DNA from: an uncultured Polymorphobacter sp.
GTDB lineage: Bacteria; Pseudomonadota; Alphaproteobacteria; Sphingomonadales; Sphingomonadaceae
Length of the DNA: 5,198 nt
Direction of reading: 5' to 3'
NCBI GenBank assembly: GCA_937894055.1
Contig: CALDHQ010000154.1
Span: 1-5,198 of the forward strand
Shown: positions 2,770 to 5,140 of the stretch, in pieces
Layout of the letters: every line of letters starts with the position of its first letter
Numbering within the stretch: the stretch's first letter is position 1
Translations under genes and position numbers: made by a program
Notes under the pieces: generated by a model
Database searches by the model: none
The model's input: only the letters and a program-made list of their open reading frames with translations
What the model was told of the DNA's origin: nothing

Positions 2770-3264
2770 CTACTGCGGCCACGGCCGCCAGCCTTCGACG
2801 CGCCGCGTCAGTGCTTCGACTTTGGCGGGGGCAAGCGCCATCTCGAGCCGCTTGGCGAGTTCGAGTGCCTCGACGCGCAACGCCGAATCGCCGCGCGCGG
2901 CGGCCAGCTGCGCCCAGACCCAGGCATCATCGGTATCGCGGCTGACGCCCTTGCCGGCGGCCAGCGCCCGCGCCAGCGCCAGTTGCCCGGGCGCATAGCC
3001 GCGGCTGGCGGCGCGGAACCAATAGGTGGCGGCGGTGGCGTGGTCGGCGGCGACACCCTGCCCGCGCGCATACATCGTGCCGAGCATGGTTTCGCCGATG
3101 GCCGAACCGTGATTGGCGAGCTTGGTGAACTGCGCATGCGCCTGGCCGTAGTCACCCGCCGCATAGGCGGCGAACCCGGCATCGAGCACGCCCTGCGCCC
3201 ACGGCGTCGCCGCCGACAGCGGTGCCGCCAGCGCCAGCAATGCCCCAAAAACCCAAACTCTCAT
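2770..3264 (-). CDS. Secreted Sel1-repeat protein of unknown role
   Basis: A 164-residue protein with a signal peptide (MRVWVFGALLALAAPLSA, probable cut near residues 18-20). A TPR-like helix pair follows at about 26-52 (FAAYAAGDYGQAHAQFTKLA), then two Sel1-type repeats: about 54-90 (LGTMYARGQGVAADHATAA, then YWFRAASRG) and about 91-126 (the second with GKGVSRDTDDAWVWAQLAAARGD). Sel1 repeats are alpha-solenoid units that bind proteins; family members are scaffolds or adaptors, here in the periplasm or outer compartment. No catalytic motif is seen. The frame extends 59 codons upstream to 3441, but that part is arginine-rich, lacks a signal sequence at its own start and would cover the regulatory region, so the Met just before the signal peptide is chosen. 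Its ribosome binding site is weak. It is divergent from the cytochrome operon and may share its control region. Domain call firm, function unknown. Confidence 0.85.
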   Translation of the reverse strand: MRVWVFGALLALAAPLSAATPWAQGVLDAGFAAYAAGDYGQAHAQFTKLANHGSAIGETMLGTMYARGQGVAADHATAATYWFRAASRGYAPGQLALARALAAGKGVSRDTDDAWVWAQLAAARGDSALRVEALELAKRLEMALAPAKVEALTRRVEGWRPWPQ

Positions 3265-3342
3265 GCTGCCACGCCTAGCCCGCGGCGGCGCGCAGGGCAA
3301 GTTTGCTGGCCGCGTCATGGAACCAATCCGCCGCGCCCGGCA

Positions 3343-3356
3343 TTGATCAGCATCAA
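3343..3356. promoter_or_regulatory. FNR/FnrL/Anr/Dnr-type operator
   Basis: TTGATcagcATCAA is a perfect match to the palindromic consensus TTGAT-N4-ATCAA of the oxygen- or NO-sensing FNR branch of CRP-family regulators. Its centre (3349.5) lies 30 bp upstream of the centre of a -10-like hexamer, close to the spacing of class II activated promoters, where the box is centred near -41.5. It precedes two cytochrome genes, a typical target class. It is also about 85 bp upstream of the divergent Sel1 gene. The site is seen directly; the regulator is not in the window. Confidence 0.75.
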
Positions 3357-3376
3357 GGTTACGACTGCGAAACAGG

Positions 3377-3382
3377 TGTAAC
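3377..3382 (+). promoter_or_regulatory. Likely -10 element of the cytochrome operon
   Basis: TGTAAC matches TATAAT at four of six positions. A transcript starting near 3389-3391 would place the FNR-type box at about -40 to -41.5, where a class II activator substitutes for a -35 element. No good -35 hexamer is seen, which fits an activator-dependent promoter. Inference from spacing. Confidence 0.45.
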
Positions 3383-3403
3383 CGAAAATCGAGCGAGGTG
3401 GGC

Positions 3404-3433
3404 ATGTACGACCAACGCGAATTGACCGGCTGA
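3404..3433 (+). CDS. Possible 9-residue leader ORF (MYDQRELTG)
   Basis: An ATG at 3404 follows GAGGTG (3395-3400) at good spacing and opens a 9-codon frame ending in TGA at 3431-3433, 7 nt before the ATG of the membrane cytochrome. The downstream gene has no ribosome binding site of its own, and its frame is closed by TGA at 3423-3425, so it cannot start further up. The simplest reading is translational coupling: ribosomes load at the leader, stop, and restart at 3441. It could also be chance, or a sign that the true start region is misread by a frameshift. No known attenuation pattern (such as a run of one codon) is seen. Confidence 0.4.
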   Translation: MYDQRELTG

Positions 3434-3440
3434 ACCAGCA

Positions 3441-4025
3441 ATGGCCTGGCGCACCAGCATATTGACGCGGGAAATCCTGCCGTTCGCGCTGTCGTTCGCG
3501 GCGCTGATCGGCGGCGTGCTCGTGGTCGATCTGGTGCTGCATCTGGCGGGGCTGGTTTGGATCGGCCGCTATCTCGGCATTGTTGGCGTTGCGATCATCC
3601 TCGGCTCGTTCAGCTATTCGCTGGCGAAGCGCAAATGGATCAAGCCGTTCAACCCCGTCGTGCGGCTGCGCCGGCATGAGCGCTGGGCCTGGGCCGGCGC
3701 GCTGCTGATCCTCGTCCACGCCGGTATCCACTTCAACGCGGTGCTGGCGTGGCTCGCGGTCGGGGCGATGCTGATCAACATCCTCAGCGGGCTGACCGGC
3801 AAATATCTGCTGCAGCGGGCGCGGGCCCGCATGGGCCAGACGCGCACCGACCTCGCCGAGCATGGCAGCGACCCCGCCGAAATCGAAGCGCAGATGTACT
3901 GGGACAGCCTGACCTACGGCGTCATCAAGCAATGGCGCAGCCTGCACGTGCCGATCACGCTGGCGTTCGGCGTGCTGGCGCTGGCGCATATCATCAGCAC
4001 CGCGCTGTTCTGGGGCTGGCATTGA
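3441..4025 (+). CDS. Membrane b-type cytochrome with two predicted haems (ferric reductase/cytochrome b-like)
   Basis: A 194-residue integral membrane protein with five likely helices: about 13-37, 41-61, 79-98, 100-118 and 169-190. Basic stretches at 62-81 and 121-135 suggest the N-terminus is in the cytoplasm and the C-terminus in the periplasm. Helix 3 carries His79 and His93 and helix 5 carries His169 and His183, each pair 14 residues apart. This is the pattern of bis-His two-haem bundles in cytochrome b and ferric-reductase/NOX families. By topology, His79/His169 would hold a haem near the cytoplasmic side and His93/His183 one near the periplasmic side, giving a path across the membrane. 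There is no flavin or NAD domain. A cytoplasmic loop at about 119-168 is unassigned. The gene overlaps the next by 4 nt and follows a short leader ORF; it has no clear ribosome binding site. Role inferred: quinol- or quinone-linked electron transfer to the partner cytochrome c. Confidence 0.8.
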   Translation: MAWRTSILTREILPFALSFAALIGGVLVVDLVLHLAGLVWIGRYLGIVGVAIILGSFSYSLAKRKWIKPFNPVVRLRRHERWAWAGALLILVHAGIHFNAVLAWLAVGAMLINILSGLTGKYLLQRARARMGQTRTDLAEHGSDPAEIEAQMYWDSLTYGVIKQWRSLHVPITLAFGVLALAHIISTALFWGWH

Positions 4026-4723
4026 ACCGCAAGATCTTCCTCGCGCTGATCGCCGCACTGCTGGCGGGCATCATCGCGCTGGCGTTCGTGCATCCGCTGC
4101 CGATGGTCGGCTCGGGGCCGCTGATGCCGGCGCACGCAGAACTCGCTACCGATTGCTTTGCCTGCCATGTGCCGTGGCGCGGGGTCAGCGCGACGCGCTG
4201 CACGACCTGTCACAAGGTTGCCGATATCGGTCGCAAGACCAGCCTTGGCGTCGCCATCATCCCGCCCAAGCCGGGGTTCCACCAGAAGCTTGCCGGGGTC
4301 GATTGCCTCGGCTGCCACACCGACCACATGGGCGCGCAACCGCCGCTGAGCTTCAGCCACGCACTGCTGGCGCCGGCGGTGCAGCGCCAGTGCGCGACCT
4401 GCCACGTCGCACCCAAAACACCGATGCATACCAACTTCGGCAGCGATTGCGCGAGCTGCCACACCACCAAGGCCTGGGCCCCCGCGACGTTCGACCATGC
4501 GCGCTATTTCGCGCTGACCGGCCCGCACAACGTGCCGTGCGCGACCTGCCACATCCGGCAGGATACCTCGCGCTACACCTGCTACGGCTGCCACGAACAC
4601 CGCCCCGACCAGATCCGCGCCGAACACCGCGAGGTCCGCACCACCAACCTCGACAATTGCGTCCAGTGCCACCGCAGCGCCGAAGGCGAACGCGGCGAGG
4701 GCGGCGAACGCGACGAAGACTGA
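4022..4723 (+). CDS. Membrane-anchored octahaem cytochrome c (c3/c7-like)
   Basis: A 233-residue periplasmic multihaem cytochrome. Residues 5-22 (FLALIAALLAGIIALAFV) form an export signal or, lacking a clear cut site there, an uncleaved anchor; AHA at 37-39 is a possible later cut site. Eight CXXCH haem-attachment motifs start at Cys45, 60, 95, 124, 143, 173, 187 and 213. Further histidines (38, 87, 102, 113, 136, 159, 169, 193, 202) could supply the distal ligand for every haem. F-x-H segments before Cys95, 124 and 173 are typical of class III (c3/c7) cytochromes. The length is short for eight haems, about 24 residues each, so this is probably an electron wire rather than a large oxidoreductase; no CXXCK-type active site is present. 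The TTG start at 4022 overlaps the upstream stop (TTGA), and it is the only start just before the signal sequence. The tail 218-233 is highly charged. Haem loading needs the Ccm pathway, not present here. Confidence 0.9.
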   Translation: MNRKIFLALIAALLAGIIALAFVHPLPMVGSGPLMPAHAELATDCFACHVPWRGVSATRCTTCHKVADIGRKTSLGVAIIPPKPGFHQKLAGVDCLGCHTDHMGAQPPLSFSHALLAPAVQRQCATCHVAPKTPMHTNFGSDCASCHTTKAWAPATFDHARYFALTGPHNVPCATCHIRQDTSRYTCYGCHEHRPDQIRAEHREVRTTNLDNCVQCHRSAEGERGEGGERDED

Positions 4724-4744: not shown

Positions 4745-5140
4745 ATGAAAGGCTATGTCGCAGATATCGAGGAGCTGACCGAAGACAACGTCAACTTCCG
4801 CAAGGTGCTCTACACCGGCAAGCACCTGCAGCTCGTGCTGATGGCGCTCAAACCCGGCGAGGACATCGGCGCCGAAGTCCACACCACGCACGACCAGTTC
4901 TTCCGCGTCGAAAAGGGCAAGGGTGAAATCATCATCGACGGCAAGACCAGCAGCATCAAAAGCGGCTTCGCGATGATCGTGCCGGCGGGCGCCAAGCACA
5001 ATGTCATCAACACCGGCGACAAGCTGCTGCGCCTCTACACGCTGTATGCACCGCCCGAACATGTCGACCGTGTCATCGCGCTGACCCGCGCCGATGCGGA
5101 GGCGTTGCACGAGCATTTTGACGGGAAGACCACGGAGTAG
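4745..5140 (+). CDS. Small single-domain cupin protein
   Basis: A 131-residue protein with one cupin beta-barrel. Motif 1 spans about 38-60 (GEDIGAEVHTTHDQFFRVEKG) with likely metal ligands His46, a second site at His49 or Gln51, and Glu56. Motif 2 is GFAMIVPAGAKHNVINTG at 74-91 with His85. The family looks like the widespread mannose-6-phosphate isomerase-like cupins (COG0662 type), for which no single reaction is known. No signal peptide is seen, so it acts in the cytoplasm. After the barrel, a short helical tail (about 104-131) follows. It sits 21 bp after the octahaem cytochrome gene, with its own strong ribosome binding site and no visible promoter or terminator in the gap, so it is likely the third gene of that operon. 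A role in metal, haem or small-molecule sensing is possible but not shown by the sequence. Confidence 0.9.
   Translation: MKGYVADIEELTEDNVNFRKVLYTGKHLQLVLMALKPGEDIGAEVHTTHDQFFRVEKGKGEIIIDGKTSSIKSGFAMIVPAGAKHNVINTGDKLLRLYTLYAPPEHVDRVIALTRADAEALHEHFDGKTTE

Follow-up and report, generated by a model that had tools for sequence, protein, structure and literature searches.

The closest described systems are the PCC3 and PCC4 clusters, for which complexes were predicted and whose membrane proteins (IMPs) have five helices, two H-x13-H motifs and an SGxxG motif (He et al. 2017, PMC5566968; here and below, statements on cited papers refer to the parts of them that were available). Such IMPs were suggested there to be dihaem, quinone-active cytochromes b, and the core idea of an IMP combined with a multihaem cytochrome c is already published in that paper as a prediction. 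The DUF4405/FezC proteins are b-type cytochromes of the membrane with links to iron and to electron transfer outside the cytosol (PMC11334425, in part). A decahaem cytochrome with no porin nearby occurs in part of the Sphaerotilus-Leptothrix group (PMC13386937, in part) and might be a relative of the protein C described below. No description of a unit of reductase, dihaem cytochrome b and octahaem cytochrome c without a porin was found in the portions of the literature searched, which included PMC13386937, PMC10734462, PMC11334425, PMC5371394 and PMC12442390.

The locus compared with these systems lies on a 5,198-nt contig of an uncultured Polymorphobacter sp.; the window is this whole stretch of DNA, and its features are given in Table 1. 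The sequence-only reading had described a membrane protein with two H-x13-H pairs (B) and a protein with eight CXXCH motifs (C) whose genes overlap by 4 nt. All three statements were confirmed, the shared nucleotides being 4022-4025.

Table 1. Features of the window at and around the B-C gene pair (nucleotide positions in the window)
Feature	Position	Strand	Details
Sel1-repeat protein, divergent from B	2770-3441	minus	Among the 80 best of at least 519 loci in the sister only, 84% identical
FNR/Dnr/FixK-type palindromic box TTGAT-CAGC-ATCAA	3343..3356		98 nt upstream of B
Nine-codon upstream frame MYDQRELTG, possible leader	3404..3433	+	GAGGTGG before it; MYDQREFRG in sister (L010)
B, membrane protein with five predicted helices, predicted dihaem cytochrome b	3441..4025	+	ATG 3441, stop TGA 4023-4025; 194 aa; reading frame, motifs
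H79-x13-H93, helix 3 of B	3675..3719	+	Invariant in 59 B-family sequences and three distant IMPs
H169-x13-H183 with W165 (W-x3-H), helix 5 of B	3945..3989	+	H pair invariant in 59 B-family sequences and three distant IMPs
C, predicted exported octahaem cytochrome c, class III / c7 type	4022..4723	+	TTG 4022 to stop 4723; 233 aa; Pfam; 8 CXXCH, starting at residues 45, 60, 95, 124, 143, 173, 187 and 213
Small cupin (PF07883)	4745..5140	+	Pfam; behind C

Hydropathy and the AF2 helices of B (residues 5-36, 39-63 with one break, 72-97, 101-140 and 153-190) are compatible with five membrane helices. Helices 3 and 5 of B each carry the H-x13-H motif of the IMPs, and helix 4 carries their SGxxG motif in the form SGLTG at residues 116-120. 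In an alignment of six B-family rows with three distant IMPs, H79, H93, H169, H183, G117 and G120 were invariant, and the histidines invariant across the B family and the distant IMPs were exactly those at 79, 93, 169 and 183. H79/H169 are predicted to hold the inner b haem and H93/H183 the outer one. Two further histidines, H34 and H97, were invariant across the B family and not invariant in the distant IMPs. A W-x3-H-x13-H motif on both helices was considered and rejected, as helix 5 has the tryptophan (W165) and helix 3 has R75 in its place.

When the PCC3-like IMP of locus L102 was used as the query (the PCC3-like and PCC4-like labels of L101, L102 and L125-L141 come from gene content, not from comparison with the published PCC3/PCC4 sequences), B of the window was found at E 3.4e-4 and B of genome G070 at 1.4e-11. 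Alignment of B against IMPs by hhalign gave 97.7% and 97.2% over about 90 columns, covering helices 2-4, and C agreed with the 24-haem protein of L102 at 34% over 199 columns, gaps included. The sequence-only reading had recognised no named complex; that view is superseded, since B appears to belong with the IMPs of the published, predicted PCC3/PCC4 clusters as a short, distant member of the group. None of the Pfam and NCBIfam models matched B at E <= 1. The AF2 models were weak (pTM 0.58 for B and 0.56 for C) and matched no solved fold at E <= 0.001, and a comparison with the ferric reductase/NOX fold, made from this weak model of B, yielded no significant Foldseek or VIA match. A sequence database search returned 3896 homologues of B at E <= 0.001. 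Those listed were mostly nameless or 'hypothetical protein', one (P0017) being named DUF4405 in UniRef, and the named strains with homologues belonged to Sphingomonas, Novosphingobium, Rhodoferax and Leptothrix, among them Leptothrix cholodnii SP-6 (P0252).

The N-terminus of C is a hydrophobic helix, either a signal or an anchor, and the protein exceeded the Pfam cut-offs of the class III (Cytochrom_CIII), C7, c3_2 and Paired_CXXCH families. From its eight CXXCH motifs, eight covalently bound haems are predicted; composition shuffles of C contained 0.08 such motifs on average and 1 at most (2000 shuffles). No NapC model of Pfam or NCBIfam matched C at E <= 1, in agreement with the earlier view that it is not of the NapC/NirT type. 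Outside the CXXCH motifs, nine histidines reached a conservation of 95% or more in an alignment of 60 sequences. Eight would be enough to give every one of the eight haems a distal ligand. This pattern fits bis-His haems and would suggest electron transfer rather than catalysis. The earlier assignment of the pair as dihaem cytochrome b and octahaem cytochrome c likewise fits the conserved histidines.

Relatives of the locus were collected by scanning genome contigs with the B alignment, and the best 80 of at least 519 loci were kept. C lay directly behind B on the same strand in all 80 of these best loci. The offset between the genes, calculated with extrapolated gene starts, was -4 nt in 58 of them, -1 in 12, -7 in 4, +38 in 4 and another value in 2. 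In the same 80 best loci, C contained 8 CXXCH motifs in 69 cases, 10 in 8, 12 in 1 and 7 in 1; at one further locus C had 6 and was cut by the contig end. A draw of 385 genomes of the class gave matches (E <= 0.001) to B in 10 genomes and to C in 15. The strong ones (below 1e-80 for B and below 1e-100 for C) came from the same three genomes for both proteins, namely the window's own (G000), G070 and G186, and B and C were adjacent in all three. The weaker matches were partial or were other multihaem proteins; that of G413 was the PCC3-like locus L102, and G321 held a truncated B fragment without C, which is a counter-example to the pairing. B and C are a real conserved unit whose pairing is not due to chance, as the proposal of a two-gene module had it, and the two genes were not routinely apart either in the 80 best loci or among the strongest matches of the draw.

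Of the 59 close relatives, 11 gave a match to C at E <= 0.001, a strong one in only three cases: G000, its sister (G001) and G012. A third genome of the genus (G002, 94% complete) had no match to C at E <= 0.001, indicating that the B-C unit is not genus-wide. At L103:6425-6703 a B fragment of about 78 codons up to the stop was seen without C, between genes that by resemblance are cytochrome b561-like and DUF4010/MgtC-like; it is a probable decayed module.

A reductase gene (about 414 aa) abutted B in 53 of the 80 best loci, three of these reductases being partial at contig ends, and of the 27 negative loci two had less than 400 nt of room. The reductase stop was at most 25 nt from the extrapolated start of B in all 53, and at the same base in 42. 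The B-C pair is therefore often part of a three-gene unit, reductase-B-C. The sequence-only reading had noted the lack of flavin and iron-sulfur parts, which holds for the 5.2-kb contig and fails for these relatives. NAD-binding and 2Fe-2S (Fer2) domains were identified in the reductase with Pfam, and its flavin part was assigned from motif patterns and the alignment with flavohaemoprotein, the closest PDB relative (E 1e-49). Flavohaemoproteins pass NADH electrons to haem. All four FAD/NAD/2Fe-2S motif patterns were present in 49 of the 53 reductases from the 80 best loci. A hydrophobic N-terminus was found in 48 of the 49 that were testable, and 34 of these 49 had three or more K/R just behind it.

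The reductase was also found in G012 by search and in G070 and G186 by reading of the frames. Neither the genome of the window (85% complete) nor that of the sister (99%) had a match to it at E <= 0.001. For the 27 of the 80 best loci that lacked it, 9 genomes had no match and 18 had distant matches only. On an 84-row tree of B, the presence of the reductase changed 10 times compared to 23.7 times in shuffles, which indicates repeated loss or gain. The Novosphingobium hassiacum locus (L074) has VIT and P-type ATPase genes as neighbours and no reductase. A divergent trio at L098:764-4133 combines a reductase of 640 aa, extended at its N-terminus, with a dihaem-b-like protein and a heptahaem cytochrome c; the gene after the trio looks by eye like one for a copper-storage four-helix protein.

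We consider it fairly probable that B-C conducts electrons from the cytosol to the periplasm, as a compact conduit that is induced at low oxygen. On the cytoplasmic side B would accept the electrons, and C, probably exported, would distribute them in the periplasm. In relatives that carry the reductase, electrons would pass from NAD(P)H through FAD and 2Fe-2S to the inner b haem (H79/H169), the outer b haem (H93/H183) and the eight c haems. In the lineage of the window, which lost the reductase or never had it, B may receive its electrons from quinol or from a reductase encoded elsewhere. They would go no further than the periplasm, where a soluble acceptor or a metal would take them. No linked acceptor gene was seen at the B-C loci.

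The sequence-only reading had proposed a conduit from quinone to the periplasm, or the reverse. Its two-gene unit stands, and for the 53 of the 80 best loci in which the reductase abuts B, electrons are more likely to come from NAD(P)H than from quinone. The 27 best loci without the gene show that NAD(P)H input through this reductase is not essential to the unit, and since the reductase is dispensable the quinone route stays a serious rival, to which we give a little less than an even chance. Electrons would then flow, one way or the other, between the quinone pool and B and between C and partners in the periplasm, and the reductase would be an accessory of some lineages. Such a route is favoured by the adjacency of B and C with or without the reductase, by the distant matches or none elsewhere in genomes whose loci lack it, and by the suggestion of a quinone-active cytochrome b for this histidine pattern (He et al. 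2017, PMC5566968, in part); H34 and H97, invariant only in B, could shape a quinol site. It is opposed by the frequency of the abutting reductase and by the genes of 4Fe-4S flavoprotein type found next to the IMP at 14 of the 17 further IMP loci.

The low-oxygen part of the conduit reading comes from the perfect FNR-type box upstream of B, the only TTGAY-N4-RTCAA site in the window. In the sister the box is TTGAT-TAAC-ATCAA at the same distance to B, with the arms kept and the spacer changed. Of the 77 operons with sufficient room upstream (from the 80 best of at least 519 loci), 16 carried a TTGAY-N4-RTCAA box, 6 a perfect one and 21 one with at most one mismatch, compared to averages of 0.32, 0.10 and 0.74 and maxima of 3, 1 and 4 in random windows of the same loci (300 draws). 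The reversed sequence gave 0 boxes versus the 16 in 77. The remaining 61 of these 77 loci had no TTGAY-N4-RTCAA box, indicating that control is not uniform.

In the 3.3 Mb of the sister genome the perfect site occurred four times. Three copies precede genes, namely B, the gene of an FNR-type regulator and one that by Pfam is flavin monooxygenase-like, and the fourth is inside a coding frame that we take to resemble uvrB. The regulator gene was present in the genome of the window (L147) and in the sister (L148). Pfam assigned cNMP-type and Crp-type domains to the L148 protein, and the L147 protein has Cys 40, 43, 51 and 139, counted from the upper ATG, together with an ETVSR helix. This cysteine pattern and recognition helix are those of FNR proteins. 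The regulator gene has a box of its own, 59 nt before its likely start; an alternative upstream start puts that box within the gene. With the conserved box and an FNR-type regulator both found in the same genome, B-C is probably switched on at low oxygen by such a regulator, and the conduit would be used under that condition. If this is true, many presumed aerobes own an oxygen-tuned route that pushes cytoplasmic electrons into the periplasm.

The nine-codon frame is a possible leader, and its DNA was found, besides the sister (L010), in no other fetched locus save copies of the window. The small cupin is likely the last gene of the B-C operon in Polymorphobacter; that of the sister lies about 25 nt after C and is 93% identical, and a cupin of the same family was near the module in 5 of the 80 best loci, the sister included. 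At about 2655-2731, CTCATCCCGAGCGAAGTCGAGGGA and its complement form an inverted repeat that looks like a small dispersed repeat; it is flanked by the Sel1 gene and by a gene that resembles, by eye, that of tyrosyl-tRNA synthetase.

Genes for VIT-family transporters were near 13 of the 80 best loci and P-type ATPase genes near 22, a hint of metal redox work. The VIT genes stood ahead of the reductase, immediately ahead of B or behind C, which makes at least three arrangements. In the corresponding explanation the conduit would provide a neighbouring transporter or ATPase with a metal ion (Fe, Mn or Cu) reduced in the periplasm, for which FezC/DUF4405, with a proposed ferrosome role, is a precedent (PMC11334425, in part). 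We regard this as unlikely: 67 of the 80 best loci lack VIT, neither gene is present in the window or in the 16.6-kb locus of the sister, and the counts come from related, non-independent loci and carry no chance rate.

Electron uptake, the direction assumed for PCC3/PCC4 of iron oxidisers, is quite improbable. In this reading C would be reduced by a donor in the periplasm, for example Fe(II), and B would conduct the electrons inwards, with quinone or NAD(P)+ as the recipient. It is favoured by the relatedness of B and C to proteins of PCC3-like loci, by the homologue of B in L. cholodnii SP-6 and by the VIT-family genes near 13 of the 80 best loci, and opposed by the lack of a second multihaem gene in those 80, by the normal direction of flavohaemoprotein-like reductases, NAD(P)H to haem, and by FNR-type control, which is commoner for electron disposal.

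Returning to the outward conduit, its B-C unit resembles PCC3 in having, beside a periplasmic multihaem cytochrome c, an IMP whose H-x13-H pairs lie on helices 3 and 5 and whose SGxxG motif lies on helix 4, and differs from the published part of PCC3 covered here in size (B has 194 aa, the PCC3 IMP about 300; C has 8 haems, the PCC3 median is 21) and in R instead of W at position 75, so that B is without W-x3-H on helix 3. Unlike PCC3, the B-C loci have an FNR-type reductase gene (53 of the 80 best) and no second multihaem gene: apart from C, none of the frames in the 80 best of at least 519 loci had as many as three CXXCH, and 53 of these 80 extend at least 3 kb on both sides. The branch therefore probably ends in the periplasm, and the extracellular cytochrome of PCC3 would have no counterpart at these loci. 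With PCC4, as far as described in the same source, the unit shares the histidine pattern of the IMP and not the FHA-domain decahaem, tetrahaem or pentahaem cytochromes c.

In PCC4-like loci a flavoprotein/Fe-S gene and a multihaem cytochrome c gene are adjacent, as in the B-C unit, and the reductase fold differs, being of FNR type in the B-C loci and Pyr_redox plus 4Fe-4S in the PCC4-like ones. A gene with a 4Fe-4S motif adjoined the IMP in 14 of the 17 further IMP loci; in three of these (L128, L130 and L131) the IMP was placed by its hit position because a shadow frame hid it. No such adjoining gene was seen in L126, L138 and L141. The one checked with Pfam (L129) encodes a Pyr_redox/cNMP/4Fe-4S protein. 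This adjacency points to cytosolic flavoproteins as partners of the membrane family of IMPs and B. In the PCC3-like loci the 4Fe-4S flavoprotein gene did not touch the IMP, with one gene between them in L101 and more than 4 kb, on the other strand, in L102. At the PCC4-like locus L132 (752-2026 and 3174-8172) motif tags marked a frame for an FNR-like 2Fe-2S reductase together with a 4Fe-4S protein, an IMP and a decahaem cytochrome c; L132 is a possible bridge between the reductase and PCC4-like branches.

In the group of MsrPQ, bacterial NOX and ferric reductases (FRD), electrons of a cytosolic flavoprotein cross the membrane via b haems. B would work in a like way, with the difference that its output is a multihaem cytochrome c and not a molybdoenzyme or O2, and the ferric reductase/NOX domain (PF01794) did not match B at E <= 1. 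As a predicted membrane b-type cytochrome tied to extracytosolic electron transfer, B is also like the DUF4405/FezC cytochromes, from which it differs in having no match to PF14358 at E <= 1. If the conduit reading is right, the predicted PCC3 and PCC4 systems acquire a small relative that can be expressed and used to measure donor, direction and dependence on quinone. A wider reading, which we put forward tentatively and regard as somewhat doubtful, is that PCC3, PCC4 and the B-C module form one superfamily of membrane electron injectors with a dihaem-b core wired to multihaem cytochromes c, in which the cytosolic flavoprotein input was either dropped or swapped between unrelated families: FNR/2Fe-2S in B-C loci and, in PCC-like loci, Pyr_redox/4Fe-4S, to which cNMP domains may be added. 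Besides quinones, NAD(P)H flavoproteins would then drive the systems of iron oxidisers as well, and the window would represent the minimal, low-oxygen, periplasm-only form.
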